A stretch of DNA of 64,000 bases from Marinobacter sp. (GTDB lineage Bacteria; Pseudomonadota; Gammaproteobacteria; Pseudomonadales; Oleiphilaceae), in NCBI GenBank assembly GCA_022565395.1, contig JAIUMV010000003.1:1-64000 (forward strand). The letters run 5' to 3'. The translations under genes and the position numbers were made by a program. The notes beneath the pieces are model-generated. The model made no database searches. It was not told the DNA's origin and was given only the letters and a program-made list of their open reading frames with translations. Of the stretch, positions 50,394 to 57,759 are shown one piece after another (the first letter of the stretch is position 1; each line of letters starts with the position of its first letter).

Positions 50394-51245
50394 TCAGCGA
50401 CGTGCTATGGCGCCTTTACCCACGCCTTCATAGGCTTTGACCTGAATATCGCTGGTGGGGTAGTCCGTCTTACAGCGGTCGGCCAGGTGGGCTGCAATAA
50501 GTTCGACCGTGGAATCGCTGTCGATCAGATAGACCCGTGTACTTGGCAGGGTCAGGCTGAACTCGCCCTGGTTGGCTTCATAGCTGAAGGTAATGTAGTT
50601 GACGCCATTGTCCATAAACTCCTGAACGACATCTTCGGTAGTGCCCACATAGATATCTTCCCAGCGCTGTGCCCACAGGCGCTCCAGCGCGTAATCACGA
50701 TGTCCGTTGCGAGAGATCTGGATGCGCGAGCGGTGGCCATGGGCAATGCGCTGACAGTTGCCGAGGTGCTTTTTCAGTCCGTGGACATAATGGTAGTAAG
50801 GGCCGTCGATAACCTCTTCCCGCAATTCAATGTGGATCTCGGTCACGTTGGCAGGCAATACCGCCCGCAGCTCCTGCTCCAGCAGTCTTGCCACTGCTGA
50901 CGGATAAACCTGCTTGCCAGGTATCACTACAATGCCCTGCTCAGGGGATACGTGGGTGATCAGGGCACCATCCGCCAGCGTCCACTTCACCGTGACAGGG
51001 TCCTGCAGCTGGTCAATGCTGAGCCCGGCATAGTCACCGGGGATCACCAGGCGGTGGTCCACCCGTTCGTCAATCACGGTTTTGATGGTGCGTTTTACCG
51101 AGCCAAAGTCAAACACCATGCCCTGGTCGTCCAGTTCGCCTCCCAGCACAATGTCAACGATCCAGCTCTCACCCACCAGCCCCCGTTGGCTGTCCAGGTA
51201 AGCAAAGTCGATGACCGTCAGATTGTCGACGAACAGGTAGTTCAT
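50394..51245 (-). CDS. double 6-carboxytetrahydropterin synthase (QueD)-like protein
   Basis: A 283-residue protein with two tunnelling (T-fold) modules. The first (about 1-135) keeps the second half of the QueD signature (GMVFDFGSVKRTIKTVIDER and DHRL) but lacks the N-terminal His/Cys zinc site. The second (about 136-283) keeps YYHYVHGLKKHLGNCQRI and AHGHRSRI, the zinc ligands and catalytic Cys, but not the DF..LK part. The two halves together carry one full active-site set. Canonical QueD is about 120 residues, so this is a fused, subfunctionalised paralogue. Substrate: a dihydroneopterin-triphosphate-like pterin for queuosine or folate-type synthesis is likely but unproved. Confidence 0.83.
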   Translation of the reverse strand: MNYLFVDNLTVIDFAYLDSQRGLVGESWIVDIVLGGELDDQGMVFDFGSVKRTIKTVIDERVDHRLVIPGDYAGLSIDQLQDPVTVKWTLADGALITHVSPEQGIVVIPGKQVYPSAVARLLEQELRAVLPANVTEIHIELREEVIDGPYYHYVHGLKKHLGNCQRIAHGHRSRIQISRNGHRDYALERLWAQRWEDIYVGTTEDVVQEFMDNGVNYITFSYEANQGEFSLTLPSTRVYLIDSDSTVELIAAHLADRCKTDYPTSDIQVKAYEGVGKGAIARR

Positions 51246-51356: not shown

Positions 51357-52451
51357 TTAGCCAAACAAACCGGACAGCCAGGCAATACCCAGGGCAAAAA
51401 TACCGACACTGATGGCCATGCCAAGGGTGTAGACCTTGGCCGCGGTCTTTTTCTGTTGGCTGACATACAGGTCTATGGTGCGTTGGGCAATATCTTCGGC
51501 GGTTTCACGTGAGATTTCGTGCGCCTGCTGGATGGCCTCGGATTGCAGCGTCTGCCAGAACTCGGTGTCAATGGTCTGAACGCTGGTGATATGGTCTTTC
51601 AGCTCGGTCAGGTGATCGGCATTGAAGCCGCCCTGACTCTTGAGGTCTTTGCGCAGGTCTGCCAGTTCCCGTGACAGGTTCAGGGTTACTTCCGTGGCCA
51701 CTTCGTCTTTGAGTCCGGTGGACAGGCCTTCAACCTGGGCAATCAGCCTGGCAAGCTTCTCTTCAATGGTTGCCGCCTGGCGCTTCTCCTGCTCGTCAAG
51801 GCTGCGTTTGAGATGGTCAAACTGTTCATCAAACAGGCTGCTGAGCAGCTCATGCAGGCGGTTATTAATATGGGTTTTGACTGCCGAGCGGGCAATTTGC
51901 TCGATCAGGTCGCTGGTCAGCGGGACCACCTGGGGCTGACTGCTGCCGTTGAGTTCTTCACCGTGATACTGAGCGGTAAGATCGACCTTGGCTGTCAGCC
52001 CGAAGGTGTCATCGGGATCTTCGTTGGTGGCGGCCAGGGCATCGGCATCCGGTGTTGCTGGCAGGTTACCGCTGTTTACGTCTGCATCAAGCTGGTTCAG
52101 CATCATATCCAGCACATCATACTGTGGTGGTTTGGTGATGATGTTGTAGACGCCAAAGTTCTGCGCTTCCTCGATAAAAGAGGGCGACTTCTTTGAGGTG
52201 CACATGATAACCGGGATATTGGCTGTGTCCGGGTTGCACTTGATGGCTTTGGTGGCTTCCACGCCATTCATGCCCGGCATCAGGTGATCCATAAAAATGA
52301 CATCAGGGCGGCCATGGCTGTTGAGGTATTCCAGCGCTTCCTCAGCAGAGCCTGCCATGTTGACTTCCATATCCCGGTTTTCCAGCAGCTTGCTCAGCGC
52401 AAATCGCGCGACTTTCGAGTCATCTACCAGAAGTGCATTTTTAATTGCCAT
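51357..52451 (-). CDS. tail-anchored response-regulator receiver protein
   Basis: A 364-residue protein. Residues about 5-125 are a complete receiver domain: acidic pair Asp10/Asp11 (LLVDDSK), phospho-acceptor Asp55 ([10 protein letters not shown]), Thr85 and Lys107 (ITKPP). There is no DNA-binding or enzymatic output. Residues about 180-335 are charged and helical, with coiled-coil character ([20 protein letters not shown], then [18 protein letters not shown]). The C-terminus is a single hydrophobic helix (about 340-362; [21 protein letters not shown]). The receiver is thus tethered to the membrane by its tail. It is followed by a MORN/PEGA membrane-protein gene on the same strand 75 bases upstream in coordinate terms of transcription. 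Confidence 0.85.
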
Positions 52452-52526
52452 GTTACAACCTCAGATCTGTACACCGTTTTTTATGATGTCCTGTCGGGGT
52501 GTGTCGCCCGCGGCAGGTATTGCACC

Positions 52527-53858
52527 CTACCAGCCTTCCATGGGAGGGCACTGGGTGGCCCGGTAGCTTCTGTCACGATAACACACACCCGGTTCGGTTG
52601 TGCGGGCATTGAAAATCTCGCCTTCTGGCGTGGTGAGTCGCACCTGGCCGTAGGGCTGGCCGTTGCGGAAGGTGGCCTCAATGCGACTCCCGTTGGGGTT
52701 CATCAATACACCCTGACCATGGAAGCGGCCGTCAATGTACTGCCCTTCATATTTCTTGCCGTCCGCCATGATTTCGCTGCCTGTACCATGATAGCGCCCG
52801 GCAGAAAAACCACCACGGTAAGATCGGCCATCCGGGTAGGTCAGGGTGCCTTCACCGTGGAAGCGGCCATTACGGAACCCGCCTACGTACAGCAGCCCGT
52901 CAGCGGCCGTCAGGGTGCCGTGGCCGTTCAGCTGGCCATTGGTCCAGTCACCCGTCAGGATGTCGCCAGAGGCGGCGGTCAGGGTGCCAAGGCCATGGTA
53001 GCGGCCCTGACTGAAGCCGCCGGAGTAAGCGCTGCCATCGGTATTGCGTTGCAGGCCTTCGCCATGACGCTGGCCCATCTGCCAGTCACCCTCATAGCTG
53101 CTGCCGTCGGCGAAAAAAGCCTTGCCGTGGCCATGAAACTGGCCATCGATGAAGCTGCCTTCATAGCGCAGACCGTTATCATCCACATAGGTGCCGTCCC
53201 CGGTGCGTATATCGCCCACCCAGGTGCCGCGACGGTAATTGACCGTGGTGTACTGTTCCAGCAGGCCGCGCAGGGTGACGTCTTCGCCAGCCCGGAGTTG
53301 CACGGTGCGTTGCCAGGGCTGGAAGCCGTCCTTGCTGATCACAATGTTGTAGCTACCCGGCGCCAGCTCAAGGTCAAGGCGCGTTTGGCCGTAGTCTCTG
53401 CCGTTGATGGTAACCCGGTCACCGGTGACGTTGGAGCGCACAATCAGCTTGCCAGTGGTGGGCTCGGGCGCGGGCTCTGGTTCGCTGATAATGCGCTGGC
53501 TGCGCACTGGCATGACCGGCTCAGCCATGGCAAGCATCACAGGTGTTTCAGCCGCTGCGACCGGCTGCGGGGGCTCTGCTACCGGCGTGGTGGTCACCTC
53601 GGTGGCAGCGGCTGCGGGTAGGTCAATGGGGGCTTCGGGTGCAACGGCAATAGCTGCAGCTGCTGGCGTGGTAACGGGCTCGGGGGCGTGGGCCGGCGTG
53701 GTTACGGTGGCAGTGGTGTCATCGGCCAGGGTTTGCTGCAGGCTGGCAAGGGGCTCAGGGGCCTGCAGCTGGTCTCGCTGGATGGACGCGTACCCGGCCG
53801 TTGCCAGCAGCATGATGGCCAGCGCGTTGATAAACAGAAGTGGCCTGAAATCGACCAT
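52527..53858 (-). CDS. MORN-repeat protein with PEGA domain and membrane anchor
   Basis: A 443-residue protein. An N-terminal anchor helix (about residues 6-22), then an Ala/Pro/Thr-rich extended linker (about 25-130), a PEGA domain (about 135-200; GKLIVRSNVTGDRVTINGRD, then KDGFQPWQRTVQL), then about eight MORN repeats of 23 residues (YEGSFIDGQFHGHGKAFFADG, YVGGFRNGRFHGEGTLTYPDG and others) to residue about 405. The C-terminal Cys pair (GVCYRD, QCPPME) may bond. MORN repeats bind lipid or act as rods; PEGA domains are surface-exposed. It ends 75 bases before the receiver gene; possible operon with it. Confidence 0.9.
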   Translation of the reverse strand: MVDFRPLLFINALAIMLLATAGYASIQRDQLQAPEPLASLQQTLADDTTATVTTPAHAPEPVTTPAAAAIAVAPEAPIDLPAAAATEVTTTPVAEPPQPVAAAETPVMLAMAEPVMPVRSQRIISEPEPAPEPTTGKLIVRSNVTGDRVTINGRDYGQTRLDLELAPGSYNIVISKDGFQPWQRTVQLRAGEDVTLRGLLEQYTTVNYRRGTWVGDIRTGDGTYVDDNGLRYEGSFIDGQFHGHGKAFFADGSSYEGDWQMGQRHGEGLQRNTDGSAYSGGFSQGRYHGLGTLTAASGDILTGDWTNGQLNGHGTLTAADGLLYVGGFRNGRFHGEGTLTYPDGRSYRGGFSAGRYHGTGSEIMADGKKYEGQYIDGRFHGQGVLMNPNGSRIEATFRNGQPYGQVRLTTPEGEIFNARTTEPGVCYRDRSYRATQCPPMEGW

Positions 53859-54043
53859 GTTTGCCCCTCATCACTACGCAAGAAAGTGGGATGAGGCAGC
53901 CAGGGCAAGTGGCCATTGGCCTGTAGATGGTCCTTTGCCCCGGGTGCCAAGCTGGGATTTCATCCCTGCAGATTTCATCTTAGCGAGCCGGGGCTACGTT
54001 ATGTAACAAAAAGTGACTGGAATTTACGAGATTGTTGGGCGCT

Positions 54044-54706
54044 TCACACTTTGGTCGGACCTTGGTCAATCTTTGCTGGTTCATCTGTACCAGAATGATT
54101 TCCGGTACGGTTTTTGCGCTTGTCCTGATAGCGCTTTTCCCAAGCCCGCATATGCACGTCAGCCTCATACTGGTAGGGGGAGCGGAACGGGGTCAGCACA
54201 AAATCGAACACCAGAAAGAAAAAGCCCATGGAGAGCCAGGCCACCAACAGGGTGTTCACCATGTTGGCCTGAACCTCCGGGTTGGCGTATACGAAGGTGT
54301 TGAGCAGGGACAGGCTGTTGGTGGCCAGGATAACCGGATCAAAATTGGCCATGACCAGAGGCACCCAGAACACAATGAAGACCGGGAAGAAACCAAACGA
54401 CCAGAGTGTGCGGCGCAGGATATAAATGGCGACCGCACGCCAGAAGCGCTGTCGCAGTTCTGGCTCCTTGCGGATTTGCCCGACATAGCGCCGCCGCTCC
54501 GCCCAGTAGGCGGCTACGGTTTGTTCATCGGCGGCGCCGGCATAGGGATTGACTACCGCCGCAGGCGGTGCCTCGCTGGCCTGGTCGGGTTGTGGCTCAG
54601 CGTCCGTGCGGCGGTTGGCCGGGTTAGGCTCGTTAATGACTTGCTCCGGTGCGGTCATCGGGGTGATCTGTCCTTGTCTGGCTTCGGTCTCAGGATCTAT
54701 CGGCAT
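54044..54706 (-). CDS. integral membrane protein of unknown function
   Basis: A 220-residue protein. A polar Pro-rich N-terminus (about 1-60), then hydrophobic segments at about residues 97-120, 125-142 and 150-175, then a basic C-terminus (KRYQDKRKNRTGNHSG). No family recognised. It lies about 185 bases upstream of the MORN gene and may be cotranscribed. It is divergent from the M16 protease gene. Confidence 0.7.
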   Translation of the reverse strand: MPIDPETEARQGQITPMTAPEQVINEPNPANRRTDAEPQPDQASEAPPAAVVNPYAGAADEQTVAAYWAERRRYVGQIRKEPELRQRFWRAVAIYILRRTLWSFGFFPVFIVFWVPLVMANFDPVILATNSLSLLNTFVYANPEVQANMVNTLLVAWLSMGFFFLVFDFVLTPFRSPYQYEADVHMRAWEKRYQDKRKNRTGNHSGTDEPAKIDQGPTKV

Positions 54707-54834: not shown

Positions 54835-57759
54835 ATGACGCAAGTCAGTAATTCCGCCGTCCACCCGGCGTTCGAGAAGGTGCGCAGCCATGTCATCGAA
54901 ACCTTGCATGTAACTGTTGAGGAATATCGGCACAAGGCCACGGGCGCGACTCACCTTCATATGGCGTCGTCCTATGACGAGAACGTGTTTCTGGTGGCAC
55001 TGCGAACCTTTCCCATGGATTCGACCGGCGTGGCCCATATTTTGGAACACACCGCCTTGTGTGGTAGCGAGCGTTACCCGGTACGCGATCCGTTTTTCAT
55101 GATGATTCGTCGCTCACTGCATACCTTCATGAATGCGTTTACCAGCAGTGACTGGACTGCCTACCCCTTTGCCAGCAAGAACCGCAAGGACTTCGATAAC
55201 CTGTTGGCGGTATATTTGGACTCGGTATTTTTCTCCACCCTGGACCCACTGGATTTTGCCCAGGAAGGCCACCGCCTGGAGTTTGAGACCCCGGATGACC
55301 CCAACAGCCCGTTGGTTTACAAGGGCGTGGTCTACAACGAAATGAAAGGCGCCATGAGTTCGCCGCCGTCGCAGTTGTGGCAGACCCTCACATCCCACCT
55401 GTTCCCGACCACCACCTACCATTACAACAGCGGTGGTGAGCCCGATCATATTGTGGACCTCAAGTACGAGGACCTGAAACGTTTTTACACGCATCACTAC
55501 CATCCCAGTAACGCCATTTTTGCCACCTTTGGCAACATTCCTGCTCATGAGCACCAGGCACGTTTTGAGGCGCTGGCACTGAACCGCTTTGAGCGCCAGC
55601 AAATAGAGTTGCCGGTGTACGATGAGAAGCGCTTCTTTGCACCTGTTCGTGTTGAGCAGGGCTACGCGGTCAGTGAAGGTGAGCCGCTGGCCCACAAGAC
55701 CCATATTGTGATGGGCTGGCTGCTGGGGCACAGCTTTGATCTGCAGGAGTATCTGGAAAGTCAGTTGTTGGCCAACGTGCTGCTGGAAAACAGTGCTTCG
55801 CCGCTGATGCGGGCTCTTGAAACGACGGATCTGGGGCATTCACCCTCGCCCTTGTGCGGGCTGGAAGACTCCAATCGGGAAATGACCTTTGTCTGCGGCC
55901 TGGAAGGCAGTGAGCCGGGCCGCGCTACTGATCTGGAGGCGCTGGTGGAAGGCGTACTGCAGGAGGTGGCAGAGCAGGGGGTATCTGAGGAACGTCTGGA
56001 AGCTATCCTGCACCAGCTGGAACTGCATCAGCGGGAAGTGTCGGGTGACGGCTTCCCATACGGGTTGCAGTTGTTGCTCAGCGCCCTTGCACCGCTGGTG
56101 CACGGCGGTGACCCGGTGGCCCTGCTGGACCTGGAGCCGGTGCTGGCGGACATGCGGGCAAAGATCAAAGACCCGGCCTATATCCCATCCCTGGTGCGTA
56201 GCAAGTTGCTGGACAACCCCCACCGCGTGACCCTCACCCTGCGCCCTGACGACCAGCTGGATGGCCGGCGTCAGCGCGCTATTGAGGAGGCCCTGGCCAA
56301 GCGCAAGGCTGCCCTGAGTGAGGAGGAAAAGCAGGCGATCATTGTACAGGCCCGCGAACTGGAGCTTCGTCAGCAGCGCAAGGATGATGATACGGTTCTG
56401 CCCAAGATTGGTCTGGAGGATGTGCCCACCCAGCAGCCTGAGCCCGACGGTATGGACGCTGATGGTTTCCCCGCCACGGTTTACGCTCAGGGCACCAATG
56501 GCTTGATCTATGAACAGGTGATCTTGCCGCTGCCCGCCCTGAGCGACGACCAACTGACCCTGTTGCCGCTATACACCACCTGCTTGCCCGAGGTGGGCTG
56601 CGGTGATCTGGACTATCTGGCTATGCAGGACCGGATCTCTGCCGAGTCTGGTGGCATTGGTGCCTTTACGTCCGCGAAGGGCCGCATTGATGATGTGCAG
56701 GACCTGTCGGGTTATCTGGTGCTTAGCGGCAAGGCTTTGGCTCGCAATCGCAGTGCATTGACCCAGCTGCTGCGTGATGTGTTTACTGGTGCCCGCTTTG
56801 ATGAGCAGGAGCGGATTCGGGAGTTGATTGCCCAGGTGCGTGCGCGCCGTGAGCAGTCGGTAACAGGCAGTGGTCATGCGCTTGCCATGGGCGCCGCTGC
56901 CCAGGGCTTGAGTGCGGGTGCGCAACTGGCTTACCGCATGGGTGGTCTGGACGCCATACGCCGGATAAAGGCGCTGGATGATGCCTTGAATGACCCGCAA
57001 CAACTGGCAAAACTCTGTCAGCAGCTGGCTGATCTGCACCAACGTATGCAGGAGCAGGCCCGGCAGTTCCTGGTGGTTGGGGAGCAGGATCAACTGGATG
57101 CCGCGTTGGTGGAGCTGCGGGCTGCCTGGCCCTTGGCCTCCATCAAGGTAGGTGAAAGCTGGCAGGTTGAACCGGTCCGTCAGCAGGTCAAACAGGCCTG
57201 GCTGACCTCCACCCAGGTCAATTTCTGCGCCAAGGCCTATGCCACAGTGCCGGTAGATCATCCGGACGCCGCTGCGCTGTCGGTGCTGGGGGGCTTCCTG
57301 CGTAACGGTTACCTGCACCGTGCCATTCGCGAACACGGCGGTGCCTACGGCGGCGGCTCCGGGCAGGACAGTGTCAACGGTACTTTCCGCTTCTTCTCCT
57401 ACCGTGATCCCCGTTTGGAGGAAACCCTGCAGGACTTTGATGCAGCTTTGACCTGGCTGCAAACCGCAGATCACGAACCGCAGGAGCTGGAAGAAGCCAT
57501 CCTTGGGGTGGTGGGACAGTTGGACAAACCGCGCTCACCCGCCGGTGAAGCCAAACATGCCTTCCAGAACCGTCTGTTCGGACGTACTCCGGAGCAGCAG
57601 GCCCGCTTCAGGGCACGTGTGCTGGCGGTCACGCTGGATGATCTGAAGCGGGTTGCCAGCACCTGGCTGGTGCCGGAGAAGGCCAGTATAGCGGTGATAA
57701 CCAGCCCGCAGAACCGAAGCCGCGTAGAAGCCCTGGGGCTTACGGTGGAAGAGCTCTGA
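54835..57759 (+). CDS. M16C family metallopeptidase (presequence protease PreP-like)
   Basis: A 974-residue two-domain-pair insulinase-like protease. The inverted zinc motif HILEHTALCGSERYPVRDPF gives His68, Glu71 and His72; a second Glu lies about 80 residues later (YNEMKGAM). The C-terminal half is the inactive homologous half with NGYLHRAIREHGGAYGGGSG. Length and both signatures match the PreP/M16C family, which degrades short peptides in a closed chamber. It has no signal peptide, so it is cytosolic. It is convergent with ppsR. Confidence 0.93.
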   Translation: MTQVSNSAVHPAFEKVRSHVIETLHVTVEEYRHKATGATHLHMASSYDENVFLVALRTFPMDSTGVAHILEHTALCGSERYPVRDPFFMMIRRSLHTFMNAFTSSDWTAYPFASKNRKDFDNLLAVYLDSVFFSTLDPLDFAQEGHRLEFETPDDPNSPLVYKGVVYNEMKGAMSSPPSQLWQTLTSHLFPTTTYHYNSGGEPDHIVDLKYEDLKRFYTHHYHPSNAIFATFGNIPAHEHQARFEALALNRFERQQIELPVYDEKRFFAPVRVEQGYAVSEGEPLAHKTHIVMGWLLGHSFDLQEYLESQLLANVLLENSASPLMRALETTDLGHSPSPLCGLEDSNREMTFVCGLEGSEPGRATDLEALVEGVLQEVAEQGVSEERLEAILHQLELHQREVSGDGFPYGLQLLLSALAPLVHGGDPVALLDLEPVLADMRAKIKDPAYIPSLVRSKLLDNPHRVTLTLRPDDQLDGRRQRAIEEALAKRKAALSEEEKQAIIVQARELELRQQRKDDDTVLPKIGLEDVPTQQPEPDGMDADGFPATVYAQGTNGLIYEQVILPLPALSDDQLTLLPLYTTCLPEVGCGDLDYLAMQDRISAESGGIGAFTSAKGRIDDVQDLSGYLVLSGKALARNRSALTQLLRDVFTGARFDEQERIRELIAQVRARREQSVTGSGHALAMGAAAQGLSAGAQLAYRMGGLDAIRRIKALDDALNDPQQLAKLCQQLADLHQRMQEQARQFLVVGEQDQLDAALVELRAAWPLASIKVGESWQVEPVRQQVKQAWLTSTQVNFCAKAYATVPVDHPDAAALSVLGGFLRNGYLHRAIREHGGAYGGGSGQDSVNGTFRFFSYRDPRLEETLQDFDAALTWLQTADHEPQELEEAILGVVGQLDKPRSPAGEAKHAFQNRLFGRTPEQQARFRARVLAVTLDDLKRVASTWLVPEKASIAVITSPQNRSRVEALGLTVEEL

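Follow-up and report, generated by a model that had tools for sequence, protein, structure and literature searches.

In a 64,000-nucleotide stretch of DNA from Marinobacter sp. (positions 1 to 64,000 of contig JAIUMV010000003.1, referred to here as the window; the host genome is 3.9 Mb), three genes lie next to each other on the minus strand and are transcribed in the order TM2 (54706-54044), MORN/PEGA (53858-52527), and receiver (52451-51357). The receiver gene (51357..52451) is an open reading frame (ORF) of 364 amino acids (aa) with the Pfam domain Response_reg, the MORN/PEGA gene (52527..53858) is an ORF of 443 aa with the Pfam domains MORN and PEGA, and the TM2 gene (54044..54706) is an ORF of 220 aa that belongs to no known family. 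An earlier reading made from the letters of the DNA (the sequence-only reading) had located these three ORFs correctly, and that they are chance ORFs was ruled out as all three proteins are conserved across a family. The same reading had suggested that the three proteins form one joint apparatus at the membrane. As is described below, the co-loss of genes and a shift in rate support the receiver and the MORN/PEGA protein well as a unit, whereas the inclusion of TM2 in it is weakly supported.

The receiver and the MORN/PEGA protein

The Pfam domain Response_reg (PF00072) covers residues 7-114 of the receiver protein with an E value of 1.5e-23. The residues D10, D11, D55, T85, and K107, which are the complete set required for phosphorylation, are invariant in an alignment of 24 rows and, because of this, Asp55 is the right phospho-acceptor residue, as had been proposed. 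The protein consists of a receiver domain (1-127), a linker (128-179), helix A (about 180-235), a middle helix that extends to 273, helix B (278-340), and a single membrane helix at about 345-363 of the 364 aa. When the part behind the receiver domain was searched for a known output domain, DNA-binding, enzymatic or other, none was found above the Pfam cut-off, in agreement with the claim that there is no output domain beyond the helices and the anchor. The best NCBIfam match was the CheY equivalog model with 62.9 of 200 bits, which is far below the cut-off. Single-domain CheY-like proteins consist of a receiver alone; this protein, at 364 aa, adds long helices and a membrane helix at its C terminus.

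An AlphaFold2 model was built from the 24-row alignment and it has a mean predicted local distance difference test score (pLDDT) of 68.7 and a predicted template modelling score (pTM) of 0.30; the helices are the better part of this model and its overall arrangement is not reliable. It predicts the receiver domain to residue 127 (block-mean pLDDT 47-72), a linker at 131-179 with pLDDT below 50, and long helices at 180-273 and 278-363. The sequence-only reading had called these helices a long coiled coil. Their length is borne out by the prediction but the coiled coil is not, because the strongest hydrophobic period in 180-273 is 3.8 residues and not the heptad value of 3.5, and no significant hydrophobic periodicity was found in 278-340 (p 0.22). 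The receiver helices, thus, do not qualify as a canonical heptad coiled coil. The C-terminal membrane helix, also claimed earlier, has its counterpart in a hydrophobic stretch near the C terminus in 94 of the 97 aligned receiver homologues. In these homologues the membrane helix is preceded by a mean of 2.1 Lys or Arg residues and followed by 0.0, and since the positive charges precede the helix and none follow it, the N-in topology is indicated. Tail-anchored proteins have a single membrane helix near the C terminus and an N-terminal part that stays in the cytoplasm, and judged by its sequence the receiver would be such a protein.

In the MORN/PEGA protein, MORN (PF02493) matches in seven stretches with an E value of 1e-37 and 126.1 bits against a cut-off of 22.5, and PEGA (PF08308) matches residues 136-202 with an E value of 3.2e-17 and 62.6 bits against a cut-off of 20.8. 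The protein begins with a hydrophobic helix (8-26) that is followed by a variable linker rich in Pro and Ala, the PEGA domain (136-202), the MORN array, and a near-invariant C-terminal tail. The N-terminal helix is strongly conserved, with D3, P6, F9, N11, L13, L17, T20, G22, and A24 invariant in 24 rows. The only two cysteines of the window protein, 426 and 437, are both in the C-terminal tail; exactly two cysteines are present in 90 of 94 homologues, and in 92 of the 94 two of them are within the last 30 residues. This two-cysteine tail would suit a periplasmic disulfide, and the MORN/PEGA protein would probably lie mainly in the periplasm. The length of the MORN array differs between species, as is seen in the loci L001 (6866-7948) and L032 (6819-7946), without about 45 residues and with the two-cysteine tail retained. 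The repeats can be aligned with those of eukaryotic MORN membrane proteins (7rxe_A, E 3.8e-17, and 6t4d_A, E 1.7e-36; junctophilin, MORN1). When 369 genomes of the class were searched at E <= 1e-30, 13 genomes matched besides the window's own, and a wide family of the MORN/PEGA type was rejected since the matches outside the window genome all fall in the repeats, between profile positions 201 and 408 of 437.

Gene order, gene loss and sequence change in the family

The three genes are conserved as neighbours, a point on which the sequence-only reading had staked itself beforehand. All three proteins were matched in 75 of 80 homologous loci, and in 73 of the 73 loci with a complete trio (one genome being counted twice) the order TM2-MORN-receiver and the strand agree. 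In these 73 loci the gap between MORN and the receiver has a median of 52 bp (9-310) and that between TM2 and MORN a median of 114 bp (92-369). Among the 80 loci, L061 and L073 are without MORN, L043 has a MORN remnant, and L070 and L080 are without TM2. The tblastn rows of gltX mark position only, the query being out of frame, and were excluded from every count. Most of the surrounding order (PpsA, PpsR, M16, TM2, QueD-like) is shared across the family as well and, because the region is largely syntenic, conservation of the order of the trio is by itself weak evidence for a functional unit.

A profile search was read together with the loci themselves. In 163 genomes of the family the receiver (E <= 1e-50) was matched in 148, MORN (E <= 1e-50) in 136, and TM2 (E <= 1e-15) in 156. 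After reading of the loci, 136 genomes have both the receiver and MORN, 11 have the receiver only (G329, G334, G338, G364, G380, G388, G390, G394, G403, G435, and G437), 12 have neither (G012, G168, G343, G361, G362, G363, G384, G391, G400, G404, G412, and G433), none has MORN only, and four were left unassigned, namely G005 (receiver at a contig end), G340 (MORN fragment at a contig end), G366 (one contig, with no receiver or MORN match), and G381 (62% complete). Of the 27 MORN-less genomes, 20 came from the profile search and seven by difference, these being confirmed at their loci (L178, L179, L187-L190, and L193). The 23 deviating loci that were read all retain the genes on either side. 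In G403 (L178; E 8.9e-8) an intact receiver is still preceded by the final 25 residues of MORN, and behind TM2 in G400 (L187) there is a possible receiver remnant of the last 20 residues with 70% identity and an E value of only 0.007.

The changes were placed on a tree of the neighbouring 974-aa protein, which we take to be an M16-type peptidase (54835..57759, plus strand, divergent from TM2). This tree of 100 rows was made with a quick method, 46 of its 97 inner branches are starred, and the program warned of long branches that include L175, L198, and the window; it leaves out genomes represented twice (L043, L061, and L073), L191 (contig end), exact repeats, and M16 proteins below 850 aa. 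Among the three states the tree needs 12 changes, six to receiver only and six to neither, and no change that leads to MORN alone; the starred branches by themselves force at least four changes to receiver only and at least six to neither. Since the deep branches hold both genes, the 12 changes are read as six losses of MORN only and six double losses. Under equal chance, six single losses against none have a two-sided sign probability of 0.03, the double losses not being informative for this. The dependence is one-way: MORN depends on the receiver.

The rate of change was examined by fitting the identity of each gene against that of M16 over all pairs of 66 MORN-bearing rows (2016 to 2145 pairs), and each MORN-less row was then compared with its nearest MORN-bearing relative; the resulting z values are descriptive only because the pairs overlap. 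The identity of the receiver protein was below expectation in 10 of 10 MORN-less rows (z -1.4 to -9.2, median -5.4) and that of the control, PpsR, had a median z of 0.3 in nine rows. In rows where both genes are gone the median z was -1.9 for TM2 and -1.0 for the QueD-like protein. In MORN-less rows it is the receiver protein that changes most, and TM2 changes somewhat. This test omits L064, L071, L078, L192, L197, L036, and ten distant rows.

A second test used the columns that are conserved in at least 80% of the MORN-bearing rows; here L064, L071, L078, L192, and L197 were omitted for broken frames or truncation, and ten distant rows were left out of the reference set. L178 is in this test and not in the tree or the rate test because its M16 is cut. 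In eight of the 11 MORN-less rows the conserved columns of helix A were retained at 0.35-0.65, compared to a mean of 0.94 and a minimum of 0.78 in the 66 MORN-bearing rows, and in the other three (L176, L177, and L178) at 0.89-0.98. The middle helix drops in the same eight rows to 0.20-0.68 from 0.93. Helix B is at 0.90 in L173, 0.94 in L174, 0.76 in L175 and L179, and 0.32-0.36 in the related rows L193-L196. The clearest local change is that in L174, where helix A is at 0.35, helix B at 0.94, and the membrane helix at 0.90. The columns of the receiver domain are at 0.76-0.92 in 10 of the 11 MORN-less rows compared to a mean of 0.98, and the phosphorylation residues are kept in all 11 sequences. 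The reading that helix A alone decays was rejected, as conservation also falls in the middle helix, in helix B, and in the receiver domain. In one of the omitted rows, the Marinobacter-like L192 (G383), the frames of PpsR, M16, MORN, receiver, and QueD-like are broken simultaneously, which resembles a sequencing error and not decay.

TM2, the neighbouring genes and membrane receivers of the order

The third protein had been described as multi-span. In the window TM2 has two predicted membrane spans (101-119 and 153-171), and among 78 homologues the same scan predicts three spans for 45 and two for 32; because of these mixed results the number of spans is not certain, although more than one span is predicted in the window. 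No Pfam or NCBIfam family reached its cut-off with TM2, and a Foldseek search returned just two hits, with E values of 2.9 and 9.8, and no fold match. TM2 is kept in all 12 loci that are without the receiver/MORN pair and is missing from five genomes of one genus that retain the pair. Beyond the family, a search of 293 genomes of the order found it in two, which belong to a single other family, and the neighbours listed for it there include no receiver. The trio as one unit was rejected because TM2 is kept or lost independently of the pair and has another setting in another family. TM2 is a neighbour with an accessory role at best and is probably not an obligate part. The genes beside the out-of-family TM2 are presumably type II secretion genes; the TM2 relatives at L143 (5089-5745, minus strand) and L199 (4679-5293, minus strand) are divergent from them, which may point to what TM2 does.

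Directly downstream of the receiver, on the same strand, is a gene for a QueD-like protein of 283 aa (50394..51245, minus strand) with two partial matches to 6-pyruvoyl tetrahydropterin synthase (PTPS/QueD). It reaches 47 bits against the QueD equivalog cut-off of 89.25, and it is a conserved neighbour in the family and not part of the proposed unit. The receiver and QueD-like genes are separated in the window merely by a 111-bp gap, where L001 and L140 carry an extra gene. This gene, which we take to be of the MobA-type nucleotidyltransferase-like kind, sits on the other strand in these two Marinobacter-like loci, flanked by the QueD-like gene on one side and by the receiver (or TM2) gene on the other (L001, 9084-9788, minus strand; L140, 6479-7150, minus strand). 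The 75-bp gap between MORN/PEGA and the receiver (52452..52526, minus strand) was scanned and no promoter-like or terminator-like match was found inside it. The promoter scan was uninformative, with two sites compared to 1.9 expected, and the terminator scan gave eight sites compared to 4.2 expected (standard deviation 2.1), every one of them within coding sequence. The statement that the window has no kinase gene holds as far as HATPase_c shows: this domain was not matched in the window (C3:1-64000), and all 44 matches in the genome are elsewhere.

Receivers with a membrane helix are not limited to this locus. With the receiver profile at E <= 1e-25, 74 of 293 genomes of the order (35 of 119 genera) were matched, 63 of them outside the family, and among the matches listed outside the family none extends past profile position 249 of 366. 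A pattern search of 33 chosen loci gave 28 receivers in 27 loci and no match in six, L134 and L149 being near copies. A membrane helix was predicted in 27 of these 28 receivers, C-terminal in 21 and central in six, and in ten such proteins scanned with Pfam no domain besides the receiver was above the cut-off. Their listed neighbours include no common partner except for a placement seen in four loci, where the receiver lies between a gene for a protein of about 900-970 aa and another that we take to be peptidase-like and aceE-like, respectively (L135, 5349-6536; L136, 4439-5746; L160, 3980-5101; L162, 4887-6002); three of these four receivers have a predicted central membrane helix and a further part behind it. 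The window genome itself has a second membrane receiver, of 251 aa with a central helix (G000 contig 42, 9031-9786; L147, 6032-6787), whose neighbours are a receiver protein of 557 aa and a protein of 234 aa that HATPase_c matches with 40.4 bits, and a similar set of three genes is present in G007 and G018 (L148 and L150). By their predicted helices, single-membrane-helix receivers are a recurrent design in the order, of which the MORN-bound kind forms one family. Since they are found in further genera of the order, what sets this locus apart is not the tail anchor by itself, and the earlier description of an arrangement outside the usual two-component types can be upheld for the pair and is too broad for the anchor.

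Proposed mechanism, alternatives and known systems

The reading that we prefer, though only tentatively since we consider it possible and short of probable, is that the membrane-anchored receiver and the MORN/PEGA protein, acting as its output, form one inner-membrane unit that signals from the inside out. The C-terminal helix would hold the receiver at the inner membrane with the phosphorylatable domain in the cytoplasm, and Asp55 would be phosphorylated by a histidine kinase encoded elsewhere. Phosphorylation may then alter the packing or the oligomerization of the long helices, and this change could be relayed via the membrane helix to the MORN/PEGA protein, with which physical contact is presumed and whose dependence on the receiver comes from the co-loss and the rate shift. 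The MORN/PEGA protein, mainly periplasmic, might act as a tether or a binding platform, and TM2 would be at most accessory. A wider form of this proposal is that of a phosphorelay that ends in the envelope, in which a single membrane helix transmits the state of Asp55 to a periplasmic PEGA/MORN protein that serves as its dedicated effector, and the single-helix receivers of other genera, some with a part behind a central helix, would belong to a general class of outward-acting receivers; this we regard as somewhat doubtful.

Several observations weigh against the inside-out proposal. There is no direct sign of contact between the receiver and MORN or of phosphorylation. The z values on which the rate shift rests are descriptive, and in MORN-less rows the QueD-like protein (-1.3) and TM2 (-2.45) also lean below the line. 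The decay of the receiver is spread over its parts, with median z of -3.4 for the receiver domain, -4.6 for helix A, and -4.5 for helix B, and such a general decay points to no particular interface and may reflect no more than the loss of the pathway. The decayed parts would be cytoplasmic and out of reach of a periplasmic MORN protein, and since the decay is spread over such parts the dependence may be indirect. The receiver may have decayed either before or after MORN was lost. The persistence of the receiver in MORN-less lineages means that it has some function without MORN. A possible exception to the one-way dependence is G340, which stands outside the 136 genomes that match MORN: a truncated piece of MORN lies at the end of one of its contigs, and the receiver was matched nowhere in its genome. 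The N-terminal anchor claimed for the MORN/PEGA protein is also in question: MORN, PEGA, and the hydrophobic stretch at 8-26 are all there, but an anchor and a signal peptide are not discriminated. The charges that flank the helix do not discriminate its orientation (0.94 compared to 1.18 Lys or Arg), and the stretch may be an anchor or a cleaved signal peptide, as G22-x-A24 would suit the rule for a signal-peptidase site.

That the receiver outlives MORN in 11 genomes and keeps its phosphorylation residues in all of them, and hence has a function of its own, would agree with information flowing the other way, with the MORN/PEGA protein binding a component of the envelope and, across the membrane, sequestering or releasing a receiver that serves as a phosphate sink or as a local competitor for membrane-located kinases. 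The 44 HATPase_c matches of the genome would offer possible partners for such tuning from the outside in. However, no cognate kinase is linked to the locus, and the columns of the receiver domain lose conservation without MORN, which those of a stand-alone sink need not do, so we think this fairly unlikely. The long predicted helices, with their hydrophobic period of 3.8 over 180-273, and the MORN repeats, which match by sequence MORN1 and membrane-contact proteins such as junctophilin, would also agree with the receiver being an oligomeric membrane hub that positions MORN/PEGA, possibly together with TM2, at a septum or pole, with phosphorylation controlling assembly only. This positional scaffold is unlikely in our view: the helices have no heptad signal for a canonical coiled coil, and a MORN repeat match by itself does not show membrane binding.

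The plain-synteny explanation is that shared descent within one bacterial family has kept the genes side by side and that they have no function in common, and the surrounding gene order is indeed largely kept there. For TM2, which persists in 12 loci that have no pair and is absent from five genomes that have one, this is the likely explanation. For the receiver and MORN it is very unlikely, since none of the 136 genomes that match MORN is without the receiver, six changes affected MORN only and none the receiver only, and the shift in rate is specific to the receiver. What inside-out signalling by the pair would mean is best seen against the expectation that response regulators carry signals from the membrane inwards. 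In these Marinobacter-like marine bacteria a receiver, a kind of protein that usually moves freely in the cell, is fixed by its tail to the inner membrane and seems to be linked in its evolution with a neighbouring repeat protein that is probably periplasmic; if this is true, it is a route for a phosphorelay to act outwards on the envelope instead of at DNA or at an enzyme. The pattern of co-loss names the partner to test, and the genomes that are without MORN only are natural controls.

The domains of both proteins are known, and their pairing and the tail-anchored design of the receiver are without description in the literature searched. In the portions of the open-licence literature that were available, no description of a receiver-MORN pair or of a tail-anchored receiver and no published name for the single-membrane-helix receivers of the order was found, which is weak evidence of absence. 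Like the archaeal response regulators whose output domain, MetOD3, is described as anchored in the membrane (PMC5847659), the receiver protein would be attached to the membrane through its output part. With the single-domain CheY-like regulators it shares a receiver with all the phosphorylation residues that presumably acts by protein contact, but unlike them it carries a linker, long helices, and a membrane tail anchor. The other single-helix receivers of the order resemble it in receiver sequence, in the linker or long helices, and in the predicted membrane helix; they differ in that no common neighbour was seen next to those listed and in that the matches listed outside the family stop by profile position 249 of 366. 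The MORN/PEGA protein has a repeat array that can be aligned with those of junctophilin and MORN1 and adds to it an N-terminal helix, PEGA, and a two-cysteine tail, and there is no evidence of descent beyond the repeat. In inside-out receptors of the LapD type a cytoplasmic signal is read out in the periplasm via an inner-membrane protein. LapD, however, reads cyclic di-GMP (c-di-GMP) via GGDEF/EAL, whereas the system in the window has a phosphorylatable receiver.

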